From positions 186,001 to 250,000 of the forward strand of contig JADDTR010000025.1 of NCBI GenBank assembly GCA_015345905.1: 64,000 nucleotides of DNA. Direction: 5' to 3'. The number at the start of each line of letters is the position of its first letter. The first letter of the stretch is position 1. A program made the position numbers and the translations under genes. The notes beneath the pieces were generated by a model. It was not told the DNA's origin. It searched no databases and saw only the letters and a program-made list of their open reading frames with translations. This DNA is from Aotearoamyces nothofagi (lineage: Eukaryota; Ascomycota; Leotiomycetes; Leotiales; Tympanidaceae). Shown one piece after another: positions 8,941 to 64,000 of the stretch.

Positions 8941-10389
8941 CATGACCCGCCTTTTATTTAGGTGCTATTTACGAGTGAATTTTGTGTGCTGGGCGCAGGG
9001 CGCAGGGCGTGCGCGCAGTGAAGTGGCCGTCAACCAGGAGCCACGCAGAAGGCCTACAGGAGGCCTACAGGAGACCGGCAGGGCGGCAGGGCGGCAGGGC
9101 GACAGCAGGCCTACAGCAGGAACCCAAGATACCGATCCTACGTCTGGGACTCAGGGTGCTGAGGTCCTACGCAGACCTCCCAAGGCCAAGTCAACGGGTT
9201 TCCCTGGGGGGGGCAAACGCACACGCAGCAGTTATATCACTCCTACGTACACCGGGCACATCACACACGTATATGAGGAGCACGTAACCACCAGCTGCAC
9301 ACCAACTCGTAGCAATACTTGCCAGCCTGCACTTTTCGTGTCTGCTGAGCGTGTATGTACTTCCGTACAATACAGTGCGTACATACACGCACACCACACG
9401 CCCACAGTGCCGTTTAAATGCCCTGCCCCTTCAGGAGCAAGCAACTGCATCTACTCCGTTGGTCGTACGCCCCAACATCTGCTCGCCCAGGCCCCATACT
9501 CTGCGTAATGCTGAGTGTTGAATAATAGCCTCCTTCACCAAGGGCACGGCAGGAAGTGCACTCGCTGTAGGGAACGGTCACTAAAACAATCATGACAAAA
9601 GATCCCCAGCACCCAGCAATGGCCAAAGAATATCCAGATCCAGGTGCGCCGTGAGCTTGGAGTGCAGCGCGGAGTCGGAGTTGCTGGTACGAATCCAGCC
9701 TGCTGCTCGCAAACCCACCAGGGGGACGAGGGAAGTCTCTTCTCTAGTCGCACGTCGTCCCGACCCCTTCAAACACGCGACTCCTGTCTGGACATCTTCC
9801 AATCTGGGAAATTGATCCCAGCATAGCGCGGCCGAGGCCAGTGCCAGTCAGCCCTGCTGGCTGCAGCTGCCAGATCAATTGCTCGGATTAGATGAAGACC
9901 CCCGTATGATTCCGGCTGCAGCTCGTCGCGAAAAAGAACGGCTCTGGCAATTTTTTAATGTTTTTTTTTTATAGCGGAGAAAAGATAGTGTCGCGGTCCT
10001 AGGAGGTATTCCGGACAAACGGGGGGAGAGTAGGCCCATTGGGCTGCCTCGCACCAGCCACGGCTCGACCCAGCTCGGCGCAGCTCAGGCCACGCAGCGA
10101 GCAAGTCGTTCGTTTTGGCCGCAGGCCCGGAGAGCAGAGGCAGAATCAATCATCCTCTGCATCAATCGTAATCAGGCCGGACCTACATATGTACAGTACA
10201 TCTAGTACAGGTTATATATATAGTACATACAGGACAGCACATATAGTGCAGTGCATCTACTATGGTACATACAGTATAGCATGCACCCCGTACTCGGGCG
10301 AGGGACTGTCGACTGACTCGACTGACCGGGTTGACCCGATGCCGATGGACTCCATTCCAGCAGCTCTGGGCCGATCGAGGTCTGCGAGC

Positions 10390-10585
10390 CAGTGTACTGT
10401 AGCTAGCAGTGTACTGTAGCAGTGTACTGTAGCAGTGTACGTACTGTAGCAGTGTACTGTAGCAGTGTACTGTAGCAGTTTACTGTAGCAGCGTATGTAT
10501 AATGTACTGTAGCGTAGCAGCCAGCGTATGCACTGCAGCAGTGCACTACAGCAGTGCACTACAGCAGTGTACTGTAGCAGTGTAG
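10390..10585. repeat. Minisatellite of 13-bp unit AGTGTACTGTAGC
   Basis: About ten perfect or slightly altered copies of AGTGTACTGTAGC run head to tail, some with short insertions such as a duplicated GTAC. Inside the unit, TGTACTGTA is nearly self-complementary, so the array could fold into repeated hairpins. It grades into an 11-bp repeat (AGCGTAGTGGC, three copies, 10590-10625) and a 9-bp repeat (AAGTGTGGC, 10634-10660). Confidence 0.85.
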
Positions 10586-10879
10586 CCGCAGCGTAGTGGC
10601 AGCGTAGTGGCAGCGTAGTGGCAGCGTGCTAGCAGTGTGGCAAGTGTGGCAAGTGTGGCATTCGACTCATCGTCTCTTTGCCGCACAGGCTGGCTGTCCA
10701 GCCTGTGGATCGTGACGGAGCGTGGAGGGCAGGTTAGGTGCGGTGGCTCAAGCGAGGCTACGCGACACATCGTCGCATACCTGAGGAGTTGAGGGAATCG
10801 AGGAATCAGGGATTTAAGGTCGGCTGCCTAATAAGGTGCGGTGCGGTGCCTTGGGGTACAGAAGGGCGCGAGTTAGCTG

Positions 10880-10988
10880 GGGACATTGGGGACATTAGTG
10901 ATGGGACATTAGTGACATTAGTGACATTAGTGATATTAGTGATCACTGGAGGCACTGTCGACACTGTAGACACTGTCGACACTGTACA
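10880..10988. repeat. Two adjacent short tandem arrays (GACATTAGT units, then CACTGTCGA/CACTGTAGA units)
   Basis: From 10880 to 10943 a 9-bp unit close to GACATTAGT repeats about seven times with small changes. From 10953 to 10988 CACTGTCGA alternates with CACTGTAGA. The sudden switch of unit suggests independent slippage events in one unstable stretch. Confidence 0.75.
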
Positions 10989-11055
10989 GGATTCAAGGTC
11001 GGGCATTGCAGGCCCATCGGCGATCGTGCTCGGGAGGTGCCGTACCTCTAAAAGC

Positions 11056-11170
11056 AGTTACTTCTTTCCTTCTTTCCTTCTTTCCTTCCTTCTTCCTTCC
11101 TTCTTCACCTTCTGCTCCGTCTTCTCTCTTCTCTCTTCCTCCTGTTCTTTTCTTCTTTTCTTCTGCTCTT
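11056..11170. repeat. Pyrimidine-rich (CTTTC/CTTCC) tract
   Basis: More than 110 nt of almost pure C/T on the plus strand, built from CTTTC and CTTCC units. Such mirror-like polypyrimidine tracts can adopt triplex DNA. No gene start lies close enough to tie it to a promoter. Confidence 0.75.
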
Positions 11171-11862
11171 CCCTTCCTTGCTTCCGGCCGAGCCTAGCCT
11201 GGCCCGACAGCCCACGGCGCCCGGCTACCAGAGAACAATGGAATGCTGCGCCGTCAGGCTGTTATCGATAAATGGCAGGAATGTACTGTGCGGTAGGGTA
11301 GGCCCGAAGGGGCTGTTTGCGCCCGCATGGCATACTACAGTCCGGTACAGACAGCCAGAGTCGCCACAGCTCCCATTCTTCTGAAGATCGACTGCGAGAT
11401 AGGCAGATGGCCAGGCAGACAGGCACGGAAGCAATGTAAGATACTGACTGTACCTCTTGGGCCGCTCTCATTCGCCTGTACTATATGCTGTATACACGTA
11501 CCACACTGCACTGTCCACCCCTCCTTCTCTCCCTGATACATGTGCCCTATATGCTATCCTGTCGCCTGTCTGTACCGTGTCTGTATGGTGGTATCTCGCT
11601 CCAGCTTTAGCCGTTCTACCGTTAACTCGTACTGGGCATGTACTGTACAAGACGCTCAGGTAAGGTATGCCACTACGGTACAGTAGCCTGCTGCTCCCCA
11701 CAGGCTACGCAGCCAAGGGCGGTCGCGGGTCGTCAGTCCGTCCGTCAGCCAGCCAGCTCTGCTCTGTGCTGTATAGGACTGTACATTCCCTCGCCTCGTC
11801 TCCTCTCCTCTCCTGCATATCCCCTCGCTCCAGCGGCACAGTACGAACGAGGGATTATCGAT

Positions 11863-11913
11863 CAGACAGGCAGACAGGCAGACAGGCAGACAGGCAGACA
11901 GGCAGACAGACAG
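11863..11913. repeat. CAGGCAGA octamer array
   Basis: About six head-to-tail copies of an 8-bp unit CAGGCAGA, ending in a shorter CAGA run. It is a simple-sequence repeat with no coding signal. Confidence 0.8.
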
Positions 11914-12573
11914 ACGGACGTTGAGCGATGCAATGCAGCATACACGTCTGACTCAGATAAGAGTCACCACAGCAAGACCGACTGCAGCACGATCCGGCTT
12001 ACACCCCTCAACAGACCTCTCTCTCTCTCTCTCTCTGTATGTGTATGTGTATCCCCCCTCCCCCTCTCCCTCTCTGCGAGCAAGCCCTGCATGTATGCGG
12101 CGAAAAAGACGCAGTGCGACCGCTGCAATGCGATGATGCGAGCATGTCATGCATGCCGATGGATGTAACGGTAACTCTTCGCCATGGCCTGCACGAGCAC
12201 GAGCACGAGCACCACGACATCCAGCGACGGAAGAGAGGAGCAGGCTGGGCCTGTATGCTCTCGCTCACCTGCTGCTTTCCTACAGTAGAGTACTTTACCC
12301 GATAACCCTTTCTCCTCCGTCTAGCTGCAAAGGGATCGTGCATGACGGAAGAACTCCTTTCATCCCTAATTTTCTTCTTCTCTATTGCCCGGCATCCAGT
12401 CTCACGTATAGGGAGACAAGCGAGGGGATCGAGTGAGTTGCTCGTATACAGTACCGGTAGGGGAGAGATGGATGTGGATATGGATGTAGATGGATGAATG
12501 AATGAATGAATGAATTATCCTCGGCTCTACGGAGAGAGTAGATGATCTATATCAATCAAGTGTACAGTATACC

Positions 12574-12670
12574 ATACCAGCTGTATCGTATCGTATATAC
12601 AGCAACCGTACATCTCAACCCTATACCAGCTGTATCGTCTCGTATGTACAGCAACCATACATCTCAACCC
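12574..12670. repeat. Tandem duplication of a 48-bp unit
   Basis: Copy one (12574-12621) and copy two (12623-12670) both run from ATACCAGCTGTATCGT to CATCTCAACCC and differ at about three positions. The unit is longer and less simple than the neighbouring satellites, which suggests one duplication event of modest age. Confidence 0.85.
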
Positions 12671-13038
12671 CAGACCACCTCTCCTCTCCCCCTTATCCGC
12701 CGCCCATCTCACTACCTCGCTGGCCACCCACGGTCCGCACGGCTGCTCCCATGTCGCCATCCCATCCACGCACGGGCACGGCTATGCGGACGCCCCACAG
12801 GCCGGTGACGGATGGTGCGTCGATCTGGCAATTACTAACAAAGGCAAGCAAACAGCCAGCCAGGCAGGCAAACAGGCAAACAGGCAGCACCCAACCCAAC
12901 CCGCCCGGAAGACGTCACATCACGTTCCGCTCGCTCGCTACATAGGGTACCAGTACAGCACAGTTACAGTAATCGATTTAATACCGCAGCGCAGCGCAGC
13001 GCGCTAAAAGCCAGCCGCTGCACCGGCCGCCGCGTCGC

Positions 13039-13041
<3 letters not shown>

Positions 13042-13073
<32 letters not shown>
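13042..13073. repeat. (CT)16 microsatellite
   Basis: An uninterrupted CT dinucleotide run of about 32 nt. Similar but shorter CT/GA runs lie at 12017-12037 and 13993-14031. Confidence 0.9.
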
Positions 13074-13076
<3 letters not shown>

Positions 13077-13755
13077 GTCATGCAGCGTCTGGAGCAGCGG
13101 CTGGCTGGCCGAACCAGACCGGACCGGACGGAGACGCGGACGGCTCCCGTACTCCAGCATGTGATTGTCACGTGTGGGACCGGGTCATGGATAGAAGGGG
13201 GGGGGAGTTATTGTAGCTGGCTGGCTGGCTGGCTGGCAGGGCGCCTTTTTTGTCTCCTCTCCTGTCTTTCGGTCTTTGTTTTTTATAGATGTGTGTGTGT
13301 ATATGTATACGTTCATGTGTCTATATATCTATATATGTATATATGGCGCAGGCGCAGGACCTGTAGGCCGCCGAAGAAGCACGAGGGGGGGTGGGGAGGC
13401 GAGGGAGGCAGAAGCGGCAACACGTGCCGGGTTGATCGACTGGCTGGCTTTTTTATAGAAATATATAGAGAAAAATATAGAACAAAGAACAAGGAACAGA
13501 CCTTATCTTGTCTCTTTTTTCTCCAATCGCAGCTCGCTCTCTCATGCATACAGTAGCTTCTCTATGTGCCGCTTGCTCCTCTCTGGATAGCTCTCCAGAC
13601 TCGCTCTCGGCACCCTCTCTCAATGAGGCTTGTTGTGCCAGGCTTGACAGCCTGCCTGTATAAACCTGCCTAGCCTCTCTCCGTCCCCCCAGAGTCGGTA
13701 TATGCCAGGACGGGACCGACGTGATGGCCCGTCCCTCCCCCGTGCTGCTCTCCTG

Positions 13756-13770
13756 CCCCCCCCCCCCCCC
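13756..13770. repeat. Homopolymer run of 15 C
   Basis: Fifteen consecutive cytosines follow TCCTG. Its exact length may be a sequencing or assembly uncertainty. Confidence 0.8.
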
Positions 13771-14498
13771 TCCCCTGTAGTCTACTCTGTATACAAATAC
13801 AAGACGAGACGAGCCGAGCAGGCCTTCTCAGCCCACAAGACCAGGCCCCAGACGGGCAGTGGCGATAGGGCATTCTGCCTCGTCCTCTCTTGCGACCCGC
13901 CGAGGCTGCCTATCCGTGCTGGTTCCGAGATCTAGCCCCGATCGACCAATGCAGCCGGCTATACGCTAGACATGACATCAGGAATAAGGTTTCGAGAGAG
14001 AGAGAGAGAGGGAGAGATAGAGAGAGAGAAAGACCCCCGCTCTAGCACCAGCCCATGTAACGACACTCGAACGAGCCAGGGCACCTGCCCACGCAGCTAC
14101 CGGAACGCCATGCTGCCCATCCCAAGACCAACAAGATCCTACCCTCCCCAGCGCTCCGATTCCTGTAGCCCTTGCAAGCCCTGTCCCTACAATCCCGCAA
14201 GCGCCAACGCCTCCTCTCCAAAAGTCACAGCCAGGCGCGCGCCGCCTTGATACATCGGAGCCATCCAGCCGGATCGCTCTCGCCAAGCGCTTCTTCGCTC
14301 CCCCTAAGTCACATCAAGTTGTTTTGATCAGTGAGAAGGACAGAAGAGGCATCGATGGCTCCGTCTGGTGCAGATTCTAAACAGTCCTCCTCATCAGTGA
14401 CCAGAAAGAAAAGAAACATCTCTTTTCGCACCGCGGTGCTTTCGCTGATATTTCTGCCAACCTCAGTCCCGCTGCCCACGCATGCTCCCTGTGCTCCC

Positions 14499-42600: not shown

Positions 42601-44241
42601 TGAAAGACAAGAACGCAACTCCTGAACAGTTGGCTACTTGGGAAATTAAGCAGATGGCTCTCAAACTAACAGCGAACTCCATGTATGGCTGTCTCGGGTA
42701 CACAAGGTCGAGATTCTATGCAAGGCCACTGGCTGTCCTCACAACCTACAAGGGCCGAGAGATCTTACGAAGTACGAAAGCCTTGGCCGAGAGTAACTCT
42801 CTGCAGGTCATTTATGGAGATACTGATTCAGTCATGATCAACGCAAATGTTGACAATGTCGCTGATGCGTTGAAGGTTGGTAACGAGTTCAAGAAAGCCG
42901 TTAATGACCGTTATAAGCTGTTAGAAATTGATATAGACAACGTCTTCCGTCGTATATTACTGCAAGCCAAGAAGAAATATGCTGCTATCAACCTGGTGGA
43001 AATCGACGGCAAGTTTGTTGATAAGATGGAGGTCAAAGGTCTTGACATGAAACGAAGAGAATATTGTGCTCTGTCAAAGGAAGTGTCCTCGAAACTTCTG
43101 AACGAGATCCTCTCGGGCGAAGAGATAGAGATTGTCATCACTCGAATCCACGACTATCTACGCGAAATATCGACAAAGATGAGAGAAGATTCTGTGCCTG
43201 TCCAGAAGTATACGATATATACTAAGCTTGGAAAGCATCCTAAGGAGTACCCAAATGCCGATAGTATGCCCCAGGTCCAGGTCGCACTAAGGGAACTTTC
43301 TCGTGGCAAGACAGTCCGTAAGGACGATGTTATTGCTTACATTGTCACTGGCGATGGCAAGTCTTCTTCTGAGCCAGCAGCAAAGCGGTCGTACACCCCA
43401 CAAGATGTTATAAAGGGCGAATCCGGACTCAAGCCAGATGTTGAATGGTACCTGTATAAGCAGATATTTCCACCAGTTGAGCGTCTTTGTGCCAATATTT
43501 CTGGCACTGATACCGTCCGCTTGGCAGATTGTCTTGGCCTTGACGTTCGCAAGTACAGCATCACAAACAACACCTCGAAGGGTGGCAATGAGACTGAAAT
43601 CCACCCTCTGGAAAGTCAAATTGATGATGAAGTTCGCTTCAAAGATGCCGCTCGCCTCACCTTGAGCTGCAGGGCGTGCAAAGGATCCTTCGGCTTCGAG
43701 GGCCTACTAGGTAGTATTGATTTGTGTTCACCTAACGGGATTACTTGCCGGTGCGGCAGCGTTCTCAAGAATCTGTCCGTTGTAGCTCAACTTGAGCATC
43801 AAATTCGACAGCAAACGAGCAAGTACTACGAAGGTTGGCTAATCTGCGATGATCAAGCTTGCGGTACACGCACAAGACAGATGAGCGTCTATGGTCACAG
43901 ATGCCTAGGACCAAGAGGGTTGGGACATGGCTGCTTGGGGAAGATGCATTATGAATATACGGAGAAAATGATATACAACCAGCTCCTATACTTCTCGACC
44001 TTGTGGGATGTGGAGAAGGCCAAGGAGAAGGCCAATGGGCAAGACAGAGGTGAGTTAATCGATTTCCAATCGGAAATCCAGTAAGCTAATTGTAAAAATA
44101 GAACGCGTTATGGCTCTAGCTGGACATAACAAAGTGAGATTCGAGACACTGAAGGGAGTGGTGGATAGATATCTGGACAAGTGTGGAAGGCAATGGGTTG
44201 CGATGGATAGTCTCTTCGGAAAATTGGGATATTCCGCTTGA
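39636..44241 (+). CDS. POL1: DNA polymerase alpha catalytic subunit
   Basis: Six exons: 39636-39930, 39981-40084, 40134-41100, 41148-42439, 42492-44049 and 44102-44241. The introns are 47-52 nt. The predicted protein is 1451 residues, near the 1468 of yeast Pol1. The N-terminus (KRLDSYEVHQE, then DDFLAELLGDVD) is the conserved polymerase alpha tail. Motif A DFNSLYPSII starts at D862, motif B is LTANSMYGCLGY, and motif C YGDTDS has D996 and D998. The exonuclease region lacks the usual catalytic acids, as in all polymerase alpha. Two C-terminal Cys modules (CRACKGSF... and CDDQACGTRT...GHRC...GHGC) bind the B-subunit. It extends RNA primers in the Pol alpha-primase complex. Confidence 0.95.
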
Positions 44242-44800
44242 TTAGATATTATTCTGTCATGAGGCGTTGCATCTTGGGTTGAAGTGAATAGTGGCTGACG
44301 GAGTTATGGGAGGAGTTCGGTGTCGTAGATGTCTCAGTTACAAGAATGCCCAAGACAATATATATTATCACGATCTTGCAATGACGAAATGTCCTACGTC
44401 AAGGTTGACAAGGCATATGCGTGTAGTGGGTAGAGTGTGATTGAACGGAACAAGAAGTGTCCTGTTCTTATAAGCAATGTGCCTCGTAGAATGGAATGAG
44501 AAGCATGGCGAAGGAAGAAAAGGGTCGACGGAAGATTGTGAAGGCTATGGCTGGAGGCATGCCTGTAACATTCAAAGAAGTAGAAAGCCGCAATTAAAGG
44601 ATGCCCTCTTGAAGTACAGTTACATCTCCAGCATCCCAAGCACAAAAGCGTCCACGATATCGCAGCCATCCAGTCTGCACAGAGGCCGGAGGGTGGGTCG
44701 GGGGCAATGTAGCGAGTGCAAACTCTGCCTAAAAAATTACGAGACGAAAATTCGTGCAGTCTCTTATAGCAGAATAAGACTTCCGGACCCCAACAAACCC
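44242..44800. other. Intergenic region between POL1 and tRNA-Lys
   Basis: 559 bp: the POL1 3' flank and the upstream flank of the tRNA gene. Minus-strand frames here have no family resemblance. Confidence 0.45.
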
Positions 44801-44937
44801 GCCTGGGTAGCTCAATCGGTAAGTCCCAAGCAGCATGCATCCATTCGAACATTCGAATATCCGATTCTAATAACCATCGCAGGTAGAGCGTGTGACTCTT
44901 AATCTCAAGGTCGCGGGTTCGAGCCCCGCCTCGGGCT
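44801..44937 (+). tRNA. tRNA-Lys (anticodon CTT) with a 64-nt insertion in the D-loop
   Basis: Leaving out 44819-44882, the remaining 73 nt fold as a canonical tRNA. The acceptor stem is GCCTGGG/CTCGGGC with two G-U pairs. The D-stem is GCTC/GAGC with G18, G19 and A21. The anticodon loop is CTCTTAA with anticodon CTT. The T-stem is GCGGG/CCCGC with loop TTCGAGC, and the discriminator base is T. One U-U mismatch sits in the anticodon stem (29-41). The A box (TAGCTCAATCGG) is intact before the insertion and the B box (GGTTCGAGCCC) after it. Seven T follow at 44975-44981, a plausible RNA polymerase III stop. There is no insertion at the usual 37/38 site. It is either a functional gene with a novel intron or a disrupted copy. 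Confidence 0.85.
44819..44882 (+). other. Spliceosomal-type intron inside the tRNA-Lys D-loop
   Basis: The 64-nt segment begins GTAAGT, contains CTAAT at the distance from the end expected for a branch site, and ends CGCAG. These are the signals of the protein-gene introns around it, with the same size range. GGTA flanks both ends, so the boundary can slide from position 18/19 to 21/22. Inside is a direct repeat CATTCGAACATTCGAA. How it is removed, if at all, is unknown. Confidence 0.7.
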
Positions 44938-46514
44938 CAATCCCCGAAGCTCTGTCTTCTGACAGAACCTCATCTTTTTTTGGTTTTCTTTCTAAAAAAG
45001 ATTTCTTTTGGTTATTCTTTTGATTATTTATTTTGCCTTTATTTTTATTTTATTTTCCTGGCTTCTGATCTCGGTTACTATTCCCCCCCCCCCTTTTTTT
45101 TCCCTCTTGGGAGGCCCAGTTACACAAGCACATGGGACTTTTAAAAGCCTTTTCCTTTTCGCTCGTCTATTATAGGCCTCTTCGGTTCTGATATTGGGGT
45201 TTTTCGCGGTTCTTTACAGCGCTTCGCTTCACTGTTTTGGCGGTTTGGCGAGCCGGAAGCCAGGGCCGACATGCCTGGAGACAAGCGAGTTGTAGTGAAT
45301 CCCATGATTGTCTCTCTGGTGTATTCTGTACGGCGTCTTGCTAGAATGCTTGATGGTTTGGGACTTTTAAGTGAAGCTCATTGTTTATGTGTTGGATCCC
45401 TCATAGATAAACTATAGGTCATCAAGCTAACCACATTCACACCGAGTGGCTAAGAGCCTGAGGTGCTACGAGCTTACGAATTAATATTCTTGTGGTGGTA
45501 ATTATATATTTTGAGACCAAAATAATAAAAAATAAAAAATAAAAAATAAAACATCGCGAACAAAATCCAATTAAATAGTCATAGCAAACATTTTACTCTC
45601 TTAAAAGACTTCCACTGTTTCACATGGCTTATATCTACAATGGCGATCAATAGTCATCCAGTTCTCTCAGTTCATACTAAGTGAACACAACCTCAGAGTG
45701 TTATGTTCTAACATCCCCAATCCAGGCCGCCCGCACAATCTCTTAATCCGAGCCCAGAAAAAGCATGCTCAAAGGAGTACATTACAGCAAAAACCGGAAT
45801 ACTAATAGCATTTCGACTTCAATCTGCGGATGTACTGGAATAGGTAAACAATCTACAACGCTGATAATGCTACATAAACTGTGATGGTGCCCGTACATGA
45901 TAAAAATCGCGCTCGAGGAGCCATGTCTTTTTTTTATATGTAGAATTACTAGCGGACCTGCGCTAGAAATGGGAGTTGGGCCGGCGGTTGCAGGTGAGAA
46001 TGCTATGGCATTCTACATATATGGTACTTGTATGTACTGTACATATATATAGTGCGGTGCGGTGTAGATTATCTGCGATATTGCATGGCGGCGTTGATGG
46101 AGTCGTGGCGGTGCGGTGCGGCTATGTGGATAAGACTGTGGGGCTCAGGCGATGCTGGAATCGGCTTGCGAAGGAGACGCGACGATGGAGACGCGAAGAT
46201 GGAAACGCCCTCAGGCCTCAGGTCTCTGCCGTCTCCGCCGTCTCCGCCGCGAGAATGGCAGCTTGGCGGAGTGCTTAATCCACTGCTATTGCCAGCGTTA
46301 GAGCCCTGGCATCTTCAACCCACTGTAAGCCTCTCGAGGTTCTTCATATGCATATATAACGACGCGGCATCCGTTTGAGTTCTGGCATTACTAGAGAACC
46401 TAGCTGCCTAGCTGTCTTGCAGTAACACGATTCTCCAAAATACCATATCAATACCATATCCCTTCCTTAACCCCTCCACGAACAATTTATCTGTTGATTC
46501 TTCCCCCCTCTCCG
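44938..46514. other. Intergenic region of about 1.6 kb after tRNA-Lys
   Basis: It begins with a strongly T-rich stretch (44975-45110) that includes a run of C near 45086. It is followed by AT-rich sequence with AAAAAT repeats (45526-45550), TGTACTGTACA at 46033-46043, and GCGGTG repeats near 46055-46120. No convincing gene was found. Confidence 0.45.
44975..44981 (+). terminator. Candidate RNA polymerase III terminator (T7)
   Basis: Seven T residues lie 38 nt after the tRNA 3' end. Between them a perfect hairpin TCTGTC-TTCT-GACAGA occupies 44951-44966. Pol III usually stops at four or more T. This is the first such run after the tRNA. Confidence 0.5.
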
Positions 46515-47408
46515 TCAAGGCTTATACGGAGGCAAACCTCCCTGCGCCTGCGTCTGCGGAGGCGTATAAGCAGGCAGCTGTTCCTCAGCGCAACCGGCCG
46601 ACGCCTCCGCATCTCCTACAGTAGTGAGAGGATGCTCTCCGGGTTCCTTGCTCTGCTCCGCCGCATGTCTGGCCCGCGTATTCTTGGTCGAATATATCAG
46701 GCATAGCAGAGCGACAACCACCACAAGAGCACCTATAACAATACCGGCAATTGCACCAAAGCTGATCACTGATGGTGTCGGTTTGCCGGAATCCACCCAA
46801 TCGTCGCTCGGGACCGTGACTACTTCGGGATCGTTCTTGCCAAAATCTCGGAGCTCCAGCGCAGGTTGCGATACGGGTGTGTTAGAGAGACGGGTGCTGA
46901 AGCAGCCGTATGAACCATGTACGATTTGCTTTTGTATAAACGACTTGAACGGGCTGCAGTCGAGGTTTCCGGAGGAGTATACGAGGAAATTTCCACGTGT
47001 ATGGCGAAGTTTGGGAAGTATGAGACTGGTGGTAATTAGTAAAGATGCTAATATTCATGTGTGATGACGACGCAAGACAACTAACGAGGTAATGTCTCCA
47101 GTGATCCTCAGAGAGCCACCGATACTTCTGAGTGTCTTGGCGGATAGAGTATACAATGAGGCTGCATCTGCAGCAACCAAGTCGCCGACTATGGTTTCAA
47201 TCCCATCAAGGGTCACGGGGCCATCGTAGTCTGAAGCTATTGTAACTGATCCGTAGACCACCTTACAAGATGCAGCGAGAGCACTCGCATCGCCCTGCGA
47301 TCTAATGAGGTTTTCTGACTCGAAGCATGATCGCGCAGGGATAAGGAGAGAGGCACAGTTGATTGGTAGGACCAGGCCCAGCAGCGCGATAAGCAGAGAC
47401 CTCAACAT
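46515..47408 (-). CDS. ECM33-like single-pass cell-surface protein
   Basis: Exon 1 (47408-47086) and exon 2 (47025-46515) are joined across a 60-nt intron whose branch is TACTAAT. The junction reads RITGDITSLILPKLRHTRGN. The predicted protein is 277 residues. A signal peptide (MLRSLLIALLGLVLPINCAS) is followed by a short beta-helix like the receptor-L-domain of Ecm33/Sps2 wall proteins (YGSVTIAS, LDGIETIVGDL, LRSIGGSLRITGD). A transmembrane helix lies at about 196-220 (GAIAGIVIGALVVVVALLCL). Unlike Ecm33 it is not GPI-anchored. The cytosolic tail holds two LPxY motifs, LPAY (258-261) and LPPY (272-275), possible WW-domain ligands. A wall or sensor function is inferred. Confidence 0.7.
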
Positions 47409-47990
47409 GATGCTGAGAGAAGCCGAATCGTTGTAGCAAGGTCTCGCCGAAGACGAGATTGCCAAGATGGCATCGATGTAGAGATTAGAGACTTCTCGAG
47501 GTCGTGAACGAGACACCAAGATGCACCCACGATCACGACGGGGTTTTCAGTACGTTTCACCAGCAATGACACGGGCAGAGTCGCGCGCGCGGGGGGCGGG
47601 TTGGGGTTTCCGCGCAGCTTGGTCTTCTGTGCCGCAATCAGCTCAGCCTTGTACTTGTACAGACACTGAGCCGTATATTCATGTCAGGATCCAGAAACCT
47701 GGCTGTGATACTTCGGGCCCCTCCAATCATTTGAGGTGGTTAAAATCCTCATCCCAATGAAATGCTTCCCGTCAGTGGCGAGGACAAACTTGAAATAGTT
47801 GGACACTGCGGCCAGGTGGTGCAGTGGCCGATGACCCTGCAAGGATGGAGATAAGACGCTCAGGTGGCGGCTCGAGCGCTGGCCGTCACGTCAGACAAGC
47901 TGAAGTGGTGATGATAGCTGGCTGAGCTTTTCTTCTTATCCTGCTTACTGTCGTTGAAGCCGAGTGCTACATATTATCAGGGCTGGGTCG
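47409..47990. other. Intergenic region upstream of the ECM33-like gene
   Basis: 582 bp, probably holding the promoter of the surface-protein gene. The frames present show no recognised family. Confidence 0.4.
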
Positions 47991-48360
47991 CTAAAAAAAA
48001 CGGAACAGAGAATTTGTGATATCTACAGGCTCCAACAACTTAGGTTTGGCGGACAGGACGATTGGACCGGTCTTCTTCGCCAGGAACATATCTGTAAGTT
48101 CATCCAAGCCCTCCTTGTCCTCTCCAGCCTTCGACCCGGGTAGCAAGCGCATATCATACATGTACAGGATCGACGCCAACGATATCATCAACTCCACACA
48201 CGCCAAATCCTCTCGCAACGCATGCTCTAGGGCCAACAGAAGAAGGACAGAATGCCGACTGAGCCAGCTCAACATTGGCCTTGGGATTTGGTTTCGCTTT
48301 CAATCCAACGCTCAGGTTTAAAGGAGGTGGGCTCACTGTGATTGCCCCAAAACAATACAA
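47991..48360 (-). pseudogene. Cytochrome P450 relic (C-terminal heme region)
   Basis: On the minus strand three pieces in order match the end of a fungal P450. SEPTSFKPERW has the conserved PERW motif at 48305-48316. SAFCPSSVGPRACVAR has the heme-ligand Cys codon at 48220-48222. DLACVELMISLASILYMYDM then leads to FLAKKTGPIVL near the C-terminus. They lie in different frames, with at least two frame changes, one before and one just after the heme loop. The usual CxG glycine is replaced by Ala. The upstream two thirds of a P450 were not recognised nearby. A single functional P450 cannot be read here, so it is an old, truncated gene copy. Confidence 0.75.
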
Positions 48361-49146
48361 CAAAGCGATGCTGTTTAGTGTTGGAGAGTTGAGAGCTGAG
48401 TTGTGCTCGTACTGCGTTTGACGTCTTATTTTGAAAGCAGATGAAGTGTGAGTGCTAAGCATCAGTACTACCGAACAAGTTCCCTGCTTGCAAGTTGGTT
48501 GACACGGCCACACCAGCCTATGAAGAAACAGAAGAACATGTCAGCATATGTAAAGCGTAACAACGCACGGAACCACCTTATTCACATCTTTTACTTAAAC
48601 GGTACTAGAATCATCAAAATTCCTTAATCCGGTTCATCAGAATAGACTCAGCAGAGTTTGTGGCGCTGCAGATCAAGGCCAATTGCCGGCTGTAAATGCA
48701 CTGTAATGTATAATATTGCATACACATAATATTTCGATTCTTGGGCTACATGATGGATTTAATCTTGGATCCGACCGCTGGCGAGTGCCACTCATGAATA
48801 TCACCATGGCATTCAAAATGTCCCCGTTGAGAAATCTGGAGACTACTATGGGTGTTACAGCAAAGACCTAATGGTGCACACACGCATCTTATTCTTATCA
48901 TTGGTTGACGCCTCAGACATATTGGAGGTCAGGTACATGACTAAATGAGGATCCTATATGACAAAACAACAATTGAAACTACTGGTATCAGACTGCTTTC
49001 CTAAGCACGCATTTTTCTAATGCTTTTTGATGCCACTCGCCACAAAGCCTGAAGCTGCCGTGGTTAACGTGTAGAAATATCAGAACTTTTTGGGTATACC
49101 CGTTCGAAAACCTGACGCCAAATATGCCCCCCTTCTCTTTCCGTGC
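48361..49146. other. Intergenic region next to TSC2 3' end
   Basis: 786 bp. It may hold further decayed parts of the P450 relic, but I could not recognise any. The part next to 49146 is the TSC2 3' flank. Confidence 0.4.
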
Positions 49147-52100
49147 TTATGCCCACCTTGAGAAATCAAATGCCTCGACCATGTTTGACTCCGTTCCATT
49201 CCGTACTTCAGGTTCTGCGGCTATCGGTTTTAACCGATCCTGGTCACTAGTGGTTGTCAAGAAAGTGGCAACGGATGACCTTCGTAGGCTATGGAAGCTA
49301 TCTCTGACATTTTGGCTGTTGATGTCCTGTGAATTTGAACCACTGCCTAGAGCCGAACCAGGTGGAGACGCCATTAGAGCACCTTCAGCATGTCTAGATC
49401 CATACTTTTCACGGAGTCGCGAAATCTCTCGCAAACGACTGCGCCAAGATGATATATACTCGCCTCCTTTTTGGTTGGCCCAGACTTGGGAAAAGACGGA
49501 TGCATTAAGGGCAAGGAGACGTATGAAGTCTGGCAGGGCCTCTAAGCTCATGATCTTCGTCTCTGCAGCAGGGGATATCTCTGGGAAGCCTTCCTTGCTC
49601 ATGACCTGAACCTTATAGAATGCAGAGTCTGCGTAAGACTTAGAACGTGTACGTGTTGCAACGAATGAAGCACGGGACTCTGGCGTAATGACAATGTTGA
49701 CAAAATTGAACTCCGAAGGAAAAGTATTGAAGTCGAAAGGGAGACCTGAATTATTGAAAATGACATTTACAAAGTCATTACCGATATGACGTTTCTTGCT
49801 GATGCATTGAGGATCATGATCTAGGTTCGTGGGCATCAGTGTAGTAACATGAAACACCAACTCAGTGACACGATCGCGCCAGGCAAACGTGTAGTTACCA
49901 TCACTATTACCGTGCCGATCAAGGCCTTGAGTGTTAAAAGTAGCCCCTTCCAGCCTTTTGAGAGTACCCAATCCGGAAAGAAAATCTTGGTAATCACTGC
50001 TACCCATAACATTTGCAAGGATTTCTGTCTCCTGAGTTTGGTTCTCTCCGACGTAGATAATGCCAACCTTGTGCCCATCTAGTGGTGAGATGCGATCGAA
50101 GCTTTGAATGGCCCTCTTGACCATGTCGTCGTTAGGCAAGTGAATAGGACGCTCGTTTTCATAGATCGCTGGCGATGATGCTAGCAATTGAACAAGGATA
50201 TTCTTAGGAAAGACCACATTTATATCTACATGGCGTGCATCCCGTCTCTCGTCAACCTGATGAGTAGGCGGAGGCTCGAACTTTTGCCGAATCATGTAGT
50301 GAGAAGTGCTTGATGGCTGCCTTTTCGTGATCTGGGCCCAACCAGTACGGGTTGCTTGCTCGATTGTCACAATACTTTGACCAACGATCCATCTTTCTTT
50401 GAGTATTTCGCCAAAATTTTCAGACGTAAAAGTAGGGTCCGCTTTCGACTCGTCAACATCTGCATATGCAAGCAATCGCATGAAGTCCAATGTTACTTCA
50501 GACTGTTCATCAAGCCTTTGTATACCCGATTCATCCGTCCAAACAAGATTTTTGATGATCCAACTAACATGACCAGCACGATCAGAGAAACGTACTGACA
50601 AAAACCAGAACATAATCACGTGATATGCTAAGGCATATACATATTGAGGGAGGTCGTCCGAGGCATTTGGTAGTAGATTGCTTTCAGTCGCGCTCGTATC
50701 GCCAAACGCACCAGAGATTTCTAGGGGAGCACTGACGTGTCGAGCAGATGGACCGCTGTTTCGGTACGCAGTAGACCTTGCATTTTGGTCACGCACATAC
50801 TGGAGATATCGAAAACAAATGCCAAAGACGGTGCGATATTCCTCGTCTCTAAAATTCGCGTAAAGCTCTGGAAGGCGAGAAAGGCAGGCTAGAAACTCTA
50901 GAATGTGAACCGCAACATGCGACTGTGTTATAATTTGAGACATCTTGAGTAGAACGTTGACCAGTACTAGCTTCATCGAAGCAGGAAGCTCGTGGCAACA
51001 AATAGAGAGTGCGTGTATGCAGCATTTAGCGGAACGTTCCCAGGTGCCTACCCCATGAATGAACGACTTCACGATTTCATCTTCTTCACTTCTCGAGAAG
51101 TGTTTGTGATAGCTCAAAATGATTGTAAGTATCTGGAAAAGGCATATCGCAACATCGGCCTTTCGTAGACCTGAAGAAATAGGTGGTTCGTGGAAGCTAC
51201 CATTTTTGATCTGCTCGCAAAGGACGCCTCGAAGATGCTTTATCTGCGGTATAGCAGCTCTGAACAGCGCCTGATTAGTCAGCTGAGATGGAAGGTGGAC
51301 TAATATATAGCTGTAGACTTCCCAGTCACAGCCCTGCTGCAAAAGACCGATTACAGTCTCCAACCAAACATTGACCTTTAGTGGTTTCCTATCAGGAGAA
51401 ACAGATGTATCCTCGCCTTCACTCATGGCGTTGTCAATAACGGAAACCACTAATTTGCTAGCCTTTTCAGAGGTCGGTTCTGGCAGAGCTTCATGATCTG
51501 GATGCATCCACATTTGGTGATTTCGTTGTAAAGTCCGACTGATTCCACTCACTGTCCTTAAATTCGTATAAGGCTGGCCAGAAGACGCACTTCGAGGCAC
51601 CCGAGAGTCATCAACTCGAGATGCTCGATTTTGTTGAGCTTCATCTGCGGCTTGCTTTTTAGCCAACGATGCCGTAGTACGGTAGAGGGATGATGCGAGC
51701 CCTTCTGATTCTGTGAAGGGAGTTAAAAAAATCCGGTTTGCCCAGTCAGCTCTAAGTCGGAATAGCATCTTCATGGCAGAAAGACGTGCATCTATGTCGC
51801 ATGAGTTAGATTTAGCAATCCATAGAATCTCGTCAAAGGCTCGCAATGTCTTTGTGGAAGACTTATGGCCGGCTCGCATAAAAATCCGTATAATTCCCCG
51901 CGTGGCAACATTGACTGGTGTGAGGGATAGTGGATGCGTATCACTGGCAGAGGAAGATGGTAGTGATACTGGCGAGGCAGTGTGTGATCCTGGTGAAAAA
52001 AGGTGCACATTCATGCTGTCGTTTGAAACACGGAGGTGCAGCTGCTTGAGAATGTAATCAAATACGCTCGGCGATGCAGAATCGGCAACTGCTACCGCAA

Positions 52101-61910: not shown

Positions 61911-64000
61911 GACAGAAATTGCTGGAATCAACCAAGATATCTGGAGCCTCGCTGCGGTTGTATGTTCGAGTAGATTGTATGCTCGTAAGTTGGCAACCGG
62001 CAACAGTCTATGTACTGTGTATATGACAGTCTGTTGGATCTATGACTACTCCAGACGTCAGCCTTCTCGTTGCCCTGGTTCGCAGGGCTTGCTAGGGCCA
62101 GAGCAGGACAAGCGGCTTAGCAAAGAGCTGAGCTGACCAGACTTACCACAGTGAAGGGTTGCTAGAGTATGTAAAGCTCGACCAGCATTAGGCACATGTA
62201 CAGAGAAGGTTTGCGGGAAACGTGGACTTCGTGGAGTGTCGAGCATCAAACGGGGGAGAGGCAGGTAGTTGAAGGCCTACAGAGCAGTAGGGACAGAAGA
62301 TCTGGTCGCACGACACTTCGTTTGTCATATGCAACGTCAGGTAAGCGTACACCACTGAAATGAGTAGGCACCCGTTCAACAAGTCCTGGAGTATGCAGGC
62401 GTTTTGATGTAAATCTGCTGCCTCCTTTGTACACCGTATGACATCGAGTGAAATTGCTGGATTTGTATCTAGGAGAATATCAGTGCAGTCTGGAATTTTA
62501 ACGCGGAGCTGCGCTTGGTTGATGCAAGGGATGCGATTGGGGTCGTCAGGAACGCGATTATTCTGGTAGTTGGGTCGAGAATGAGGAGATTTAGTGATGT
62601 CGCACCGCGGGAGGAGAGAATGTCTCGAAGGCGTGGGAGACCTCTTCTGATGCCACAGGGAGCAGACGGGAGGACGAGGTGTTCTGGTGATCTTGCGGGA
62701 CGGCCTGGGTTTAATGCAGCGGCAGTCACGTCTGGAGCAGTAGGGAGCGGCTTTGGGGTGTAAGGTACTGGACCGCGAACATGGCTCTCGCGTTTCGAGA
62801 CCCTTTGGGATGCGACTCCTTGACAGCAGCGAGCTAAAATTTGGTAGGGGAGTGCTAATGTGCGATGCTAATGTGCGATGCTAACGGGGCACAGCGAACG
62901 GGGTAGCGCTCCTAGTGGAGCGGGACGCCCAAACTATCCAGACTACCTTATTTACTGGCCTTGCTTGCCCTGCCGTGCGTGCGAGCGAGCGTGCGAGCCT
63001 GCCTTGCTGCTGGACGCTGGACGCTGGACGCTGGACGCTGGACGCTGGAGGTACCCAAGAACAGCACAGCACAGCACAGCACAGCACATTCTTGCTTCCC
63101 TTCTGGCCCAAGAGTCCAAGAGCCCAAGACGCCAGCCATATTGCCGCCGCGCAACCGCCGTGTGGATGTGCAGTGGCAGTCGAGGCCTCTGATCCATCGG
63201 TCAGCGTCGCTTACGGCTCGCGGGTACGGTCTTGCACGGTCTTGCGCTGTATTGCGCTGTATTGCGCTGCCATGTCCTCGCTGGGCGCGAGCAAGACAGG
63301 CACTGCAGACAAGTGCGCAGCTCCATTGCTGGCGCACTCGCCATGCTCGCCTCTACAGCACACCACGGTATACTCTACATTCGCAGTACAGTATCTGCAC
63401 GGGATACGTATCCAGCGCAGCGCAGCGCAGCGCAGAGGACAGTGCCGTGCAGGGCGCACGGAGTAGGGCCAGGCCTTACAGAGACGCGGATCGACCGCAG
63501 GCCACAGGCCACAGTGCCACACCCAAAGTTAAAAGTAGCGCTGCAAGCCTGCAATAGCCCTAAGGAATGCTTACTTGCGGCCGTGGCCCACTGCACACAT
63601 GTGCTGAACGGACACTGCTGTCGCTCTCTGACGCCAGAGACGCCCCACGCCAGCCTTATCCCGACTGGTGCAACGCCCTGGAGGCCCACAAGCCGCCGGC
63701 AACACCCCAAGCTCAGTCCTGTACTGAGGTGCACCGGGCTGGCGAGTTGTACGGCTGTGAGCCAGAGTACCAGAGTACCAGACACCAGGAGGACCAGAGT
63801 AACTAGTCGCAGCGAGTAGCCATGCCTGTCGGTGCAGCAGGTGGTGCTCGAGAGAGCTGCCTTGCCCGGCTGGGCGCCCAGGAGACGGTCGAGGAAGGGG
63901 GAGAGAGATGCGGCAGCCTCCAGCGCAACAGCGGCTGCAACTCGCAAGAGGGCATCAAGAGAGTATCGGCCGGTGTATAGCGAGCGAGTCTGCCAGTGAG
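61911..64000. other. Upstream flank of PUF3 and a second repeat-rich block to the window edge
   Basis: From 61911 to about 62870 the sequence is ordinary and probably holds the PUF3 promoter and leader. From about 62870 onward short tandem repeats recur, in the style of the 9-14 kb block. Open frames here are repeat translations without family resemblance, and no gene is called. Confidence 0.5.
63010..63088. repeat. Two neighbouring short arrays (CTGGACG and CACAG units)
   Basis: CTGGACG repeats five to six times from 63010 to 63049, and CACAG repeats about five times from 63062 to 63088. Further repeats of GCGCTGTATT (63243-63268) and CAGCG (63414-63435) lie close by. Confidence 0.85.

Follow-up and report, generated by a model that had tools for sequence, protein, structure and literature searches.

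Can a nuclear tRNA gene carry an intron of the kind that the spliceosome removes from mRNA? The question is posed by positions 44801-44937 of a 64,000-nucleotide (nt) stretch of the genome of the ascomycete Aotearoamyces nothofagi (contig JADDTR010000025.1, positions 186,001 to 250,000 of the forward strand; here referred to as the window), which we infer to be nuclear fungal DNA, most likely that of a filamentous ascomycete. At this locus, a tRNA-Lys(CTT) gene appears to be split within its D-loop by a 64-nt insert. Canonical nuclear tRNA introns lie at 37/38, are cut by an endonuclease and are sealed by a ligase. The textbook division assigns tRNA splicing to endonuclease and ligase and mRNA splicing to the spliceosome, and a working spliceosomal intron in a tRNA, if true, would join both. 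We favor the reading that the insert is a short U2-type GT-AG intron in the D-loop of a tRNA-Lys(CTT) gene transcribed by RNA polymerase III (Pol III) and that it is probably spliceable, although we put the chances of this reading at about even. If so, the signals described below suggest that the spliceosome helps in making this tRNA.

The two exons of the gene and the insert between them are arranged as follows.

44801-44937, plus strand: split tRNA-Lys(CTT) gene, matched by ARAGORN once the insert is removed
44801-44818, plus strand: exon 1, tRNA positions 1-18, with the 5′ strand of the acceptor stem and most of the A box
44819-44882, plus strand: 64-nt candidate intron of spliceosomal type, GTAAGT ... 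CTAAT, with CAG as the last three of the 12 nt after the branch A (CGCAG)
44867-44871, plus strand: branch-point-like CTAAT with its branch A at 44870 and 12 nt from there to the intron 3′ end
44883-44937, plus strand: exon 2, tRNA positions 19-73, with the anticodon CTT, the B box, and the U29-U41 mismatch

ARAGORN reported no tRNA across the window and none in the unspliced stretch, whether anticodon-loop introns were allowed or not, and the Rfam tRNA model had no match in the window at its curated cut-off. Under laxer limits, this model matched only the 3′ part of the unspliced DNA (44883-44930; 23 bits versus a cut-off of 29). Deletion of 44819-44882 left 73 nt with no base extra or missing, which ARAGORN called tRNA-Lys(ctt). 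The insert thus placed lies in the D-loop between tRNA positions 18 and 19, and the D, T, and acceptor stems of the joined sequence are paired, with wobbles at 4-69 (U4-G69) and 6-67. The initial annotation, made from the sequence without database searches, had described an exact canonical tRNA-Lys. Its coordinates, the insert length, the motifs GTAAGT, CTAAT, and CGCAG, and the 73 nt left after removal were all reproduced, as was the assignment to tRNA-Lys, but the word canonical has to be qualified for the two wobbles and for a U-U mismatch in the anticodon stem that is weighed below. If our reading is true, tRNA finders that allow introns in the anticodon loop only, as ARAGORN does here, overlook such tRNA genes.

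The elements expected of a Pol III gene were located within and around the split tRNA.

44808-44821, plus strand: A box, TAGCTCAATCGGTA
44916-44926, plus strand: B box, GGTTCGAGCCC, the sole match to GGTTCRANNCC on both strands of the window
44975-44981, plus strand: run of seven T residues, likely Pol III terminator
44764-44769, plus strand: TATA-like TTATAG, a weak and short motif, possible Pol III upstream element

The A box was assigned on its usual role and consensus, and the B box on its usual consensus. As the insert supplies a GTA of its own at its start, the A box stays continuous in the DNA, and together with the B box it bears out the earlier description of both boxes as intact. The layout of a Pol III type 2 gene, with A box, B box, and T-run, is present in the sequence. 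Any run of five T residues lies no more than 60 nt away for 3.7% of the plus-strand positions of the window, and the TTATAG motif precedes the start of the tRNA by approximately 37 bp. On the opposite strand, a 180-amino-acid (aa) open reading frame (ORF; 44394-44936, minus strand) spans the tRNA, and its start, ARGGARTRDLEIKS, is an antisense reading of the tRNA. This ORF is spurious, and spurious ORFs of the antisense-tRNA kind occur in protein databases.

To which class would the insert belong? Like U2-type introns, it has GT-AG ends, donor and acceptor sequences that agree with the consensus, and a CTRAY motif at the usual distance. Several genes in the window are broken by short introns, and the nearest of these, approximately 0.7 kb upstream of the insert, is the last intron of the DNA polymerase alpha gene (POL1), which served as a local comparison.

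44050-44101, plus strand: last intron of POL1, GTGAGT ... CTAAT, with TAG as the last three of the 12 nt after the branch A

This intron is supported because joining the exons across 44050-44101 extends the zf-DNA_Pol (Pfam) match, which rises from 190 to 238 bits while its end in the model moves from position 144 to 186, the last one. CTAAT with the 12-nt spacing is common to the POL1 intron and the insert.

Two tests compared the insert with the rest of the window. The first applied a published consensus of the introns in fungal U3 genes (GTRWGT donor, branch at 6-36 nt, and YAG acceptor; PMC5832005), with the branch motif reduced to the five-base core CTRAY because the insert has a T before CTAAT. 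Only two of the 127,872 64-mers on both strands fit: the insert is one, and the other, at 59269-59206, is an inferred intron of a protein gene. The second test scored the same 64-mers with a model built from 16 hand-picked inferred introns of the window (46-64 nt). Again, two of the 127,872 reached the score of the insert, the insert itself and 59269-59206, and the insert outscored 6 of the 16 model introns in a leave-one-out comparison. The 16 introns comprised 14 of the 23 rows of one candidate list, one intron from a second source, and the last intron of POL1, and the rows left out were three alternative acceptors of introns already used and six judged less certain. The candidate list was preselected for consensus signals, which makes the model sharper; the published-consensus test is free of any choice of introns. 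Moreover, the POL1 intron had been found via a search for the insert-type consensus, and its addition raised the rank of the insert, which in the first model of 15 introns had stood above 4 of the 15, with 4 of the 127,872 64-mers, itself included, at or above its score. Collectively, the sequence signals of the insert, which fit both the model and the published core consensus, lend good support to its assignment to the spliceosomal type. The initial annotation had made the same assignment and had likened the insert in signals and size to the protein-gene introns nearby. The likeness in signals stands, while 64 nt is at the upper end of the size range of the 16 introns.

The boundaries of the insert are marked by a short direct repeat.

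44818-44821, plus strand: left copy of the GGTA direct repeat
44882-44885, plus strand: right copy of the GGTA direct repeat, consisting of the last intron base and the first three bases of exon 2

Owing to this repeat, five registers of the cut are equivalent in giving an identical product, and GT-AG ends appear in one of them only. The cut site proposed initially corresponds to this GT-AG register, yet four others are equivalent to it in their product. Two readings of the repeat are available, a 4-bp target duplication and the footprint of a GTA...G intron sitting at G|GTA, and the repeat does not discriminate between DNA transposition and reverse splicing. Within the insert, we also observed a palindromic hairpin at 44843-44858 (ATTCGAA-CA-TTCGAAT).

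How might such a gene be expressed? Pol III would transcribe the split tRNA-Lys gene, and the acceptor and T arms of the precursor would fold around the enlarged D-loop. Donor consensus sequences pair with the 5′ end of U1 (PMC3488318); in the precursor, U1 could pair with seven consecutive bases, G|GUAAGU, and CAG is the first AG past the branch site. The spliceosome would then excise the 64 nt, after which the D-arm could close and the tRNA mature. The sequence G|GTA is common in tRNA D-loops. The intron may have arrived at this site by reverse splicing or by introner-like insertion, and its own GTA would have rebuilt the A box on entry. A fuller account, in which the tRNA is a spliceosome-dependent nuclear tRNA, G|GTA served as a proto-splice site, and the rebuilding of the A box permitted invasion without silencing, is put forward tentatively, and we consider it to be somewhat on the doubtful side.

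Several observations weigh against a functional, spliceable gene. The anticodon stem of the joined tRNA contains the U-U mismatch at 29-41, and therefore this copy may yield little or unstable tRNA. For the 73 nt without the insert, the fold of lowest energy differs from the cloverleaf (−31.1 versus −23.1 kcal/mol); a yeast tRNA-Lys deviates in the same direction with a smaller gap (−27.6 versus −24.6 kcal/mol). In the predicted fold, the end of exon 1 and the first intron base (AATCGG, 44814-44819) pair with CCGATT within the intron (44861-44866), and this 6-bp pairing could mask the first base of the 5′ splice site. A capless first exon of 18 nt with a short leader may splice poorly. Finally, CTAAT is the rarer form of the branch motif, present in 2 of the 16 model introns, and the T preceding it departs from the longer RCTRAY of the published consensus.

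The mismatch therefore makes a decaying copy a serious rival, and one that we regard as possible, if rather improbable. According to this explanation, a spliceosomal intron or an introner-like element has entered one of several tRNA-Lys(CTT) genes, where it is left unspliced or is spliced by accident only, the interrupted copy is falling into decay, and the tRNA comes from intact copies elsewhere. Filamentous fungi usually have several tRNA-Lys(CTT) genes, so that one copy could be dispensable and its loss harmless. Genes of this type are normally tightly constrained, and this one has both the U29-U41 mismatch and the U4-G69 wobble; the usual tRNA-Lys of filamentous fungi is presumably one with C4 and A29, for which the sequence collections searched gave no confirmation. 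The initial annotation had itself named a dead copy as the alternative but had overlooked the mismatch, and it is because of the mismatch that this alternative gains weight. On the other side, the remaining stems are intact, as are the two promoter boxes, the terminator run, and all splice signals, a degree of preservation that is high for a dead gene unless the insertion is a recent one. A dead copy, too, would document an intron-like insertion in a tRNA gene.

We consider it unlikely that the intron is instead spliced from an RNA polymerase II transcript running across the tRNA, be it a POL1 read-through or a long noncoding RNA, so that the tRNA is exon material. The insert does lie on the POL1 strand, and the POL1 stop codon (44239-44241 once its last intron is removed) is located 559 bp upstream of the tRNA. 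However, the implied 3′-untranslated region (UTR) would exceed 560 nt, which is long for a fungal gene, and exact restoration of a tRNA is not expected of a 3′-UTR intron.

An accidental resemblance is more improbable still. An unrelated insertion of 60-64 bp accompanied by a 4-bp target duplication would receive GTA at its start and G at its end from the GGTA repeat, so that the splice consensus would be partly tRNA derived. Because the tRNA itself donates part of this consensus, the chance tests were rerun with the repeat granted, yet of 127,880 fillings, only 54 fit the core consensus, and only 39 reached the score of the insert in the 16-intron model and 131 in the first model of 15 introns, which argues against a match by chance.

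Introns cut by the tRNA splicing endonuclease would not be expected to have GT-AG ends and a branch motif. A noncanonical intron of this kind, comparable to the D-loop and other ectopic introns in tRNA genes of Cyanidioschyzon merolae (PMC3978253), is thus barely credible here, as the position is not 37/38 and no register offers a 4-bp central helix.

Other classes of introns were rejected as well. A canonical tRNA intron of the tRNA splicing endonuclease (TSEN) type would interrupt the anticodon loop, which is uninterrupted here, the insert being at 18/19 and not at 37/38. A bulge-helix-bulge intron has a 3-nt bulge at each cut and a 4-bp helix in the center; here, the five registers in two arrangements provided 0 to 3 of the 4 central pairs. 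Both results support the view that the insert is neither an anticodon-loop nor a bulge-helix-bulge intron. As for group I and group II introns, the insert is only 64 nt long, has an ordinary fold (z-score of −0.74), and lacks an Rfam match; the group I and II models gave no match in the window at their cut-offs and none in 44700-45040 up to an E value of 10.

Would a noncoding host be unusual for a spliceosomal intron? In Schizosaccharomyces pombe, the gene for the Pol III RNA U6 contains a spliced intron of mRNA type, for which an origin by reverse splicing has been proposed (PMC10484740), and both intron-containing and mature U6 have been described (PMC8917221). Because this gene carries one, Pol III origin is no bar to a spliceosomal intron. 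The split tRNA-Lys resembles U6 in being a small structured Pol III RNA with an mRNA-type intron; unlike U6, it is a tRNA with internal promoter boxes, and its splicing is putative. Furthermore, reverse splicing into U6 is easier to picture because U6 sits in the spliceosome. The introns of fungal U3 small nucleolar RNA genes have a GTRWGT donor, an RCTRAY branch motif, and a YAG acceptor and lie mostly in the 5′ part of the gene; eight genomes contain both intron-bearing and intron-free copies, and in 2017, U3 and U6 were the sole small structured RNAs then known to be often interrupted by introns (PMC5832005). The insert shares with them GTRWGT, the CTRAY core, YAG, and a location in the 5′ part, but it is a single 64-nt case in one tRNA gene. 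Ribosomal RNA is transcribed by RNA polymerase I. Spliceosomal introns are contained in ascomycete nuclear rRNA genes (PMC11889510, citing Cubero 2000 and Bhattacharya 2000); these are similar to the insert in type and in having a noncoding host, while the host RNA differs. Finally, TSEN-type introns, whose removal involves a known set of enzymes (PMC4090602), also interrupt a tRNA gene and must be lost from the precursor, in contrast to the insert, however, not at D-loop position 18/19 and not with GT-AG ends.

The source of the insert could be sought among introner-like elements, which in ascomycetes are spliceosomal introns multiplying within fungal genomes; the families described have neither terminal inverted repeats nor target duplications, and reverse splicing has been put forward as the route by which some introners spread (PMC9860276). 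Unlike such elements, the insert has no second copy in the 64-kb window, where the longest match elsewhere was 11 nt among the matches listed. In the same orientation, the insert showed no similarity to the 16 window introns beyond that of shuffled sequences (smallest count, 32 of 300); by raw score, the best reverse-complement alignment (7.0) exceeded the best forward one (6.0), with shuffles run for the forward orientation only. An introner family is not demonstrable here because no similar copy was found in the window.

We found no spliceosomal intron in a tRNA gene in the open-access texts searched, which is not proof of absence. In the accessible parts of the texts, the term "spliceosom" was absent from the main text of a review of tRNA introns (PMC4090602), "tRNA" was absent from a paper on fungal introner-like elements (PMC4457414), and nothing on tRNA hosts appeared in PMC11782384, PMC8216456, PMC12730881, PMC6726248, PMC3488318, and PMC2784804. 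Noncoding RNA hosts of spliceosomal introns are thus already known, but a tRNA host would be new. If our reading is true, the list of noncoding hosts (rRNA, U6, and U3) gains tRNA genes, and the locus becomes a test case for intron gain via reverse splicing because tRNAs are plentiful RNA targets.

Searches for fungal comparison sequences gave 0 exact-pattern matches in viral_contigs and in genome_contigs, and fungal tRNA-Lys sequence strings had no match in a literature search. A blastn search of the phage collection returned 112 records, the best-ranked with 82% identity over 96% of the query; in the best 20 of the 112, the match coincided with annotated tRNA genes or with no annotated feature, which has no bearing on the question.

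Besides POL1, the window contains genes for a TSC2/tuberin homologue, CSE1, eIF4G, and an SNF2-family helicase. The last intron of POL1 is easily overlooked, and the protein terminates early if it is left unspliced. Among solved structures, the top relatives of the TSC2 homologue were 5hiu and 6ssh ("GTPase activator-like protein"), which we take to be Chaetomium proteins and which outranked the chains named Tuberin. Overlapping 44050-49200 are 27 ORFs of at least 70 aa, POL1 and TSC2 among them. In the 44.2-49.1 kb gap, the two ORFs scanned for a protein gene (46518-47054 and 47058-47546, minus strand) had no Pfam match. By eye, one of these adjoining minus-strand ORFs (47546-46515) has a signal-peptide-like stretch and the other a possible membrane segment, and the pair may be one small surface-protein gene with an intron. 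Short tandem repeats are numerous at 9076-14033 and 62853-63801.
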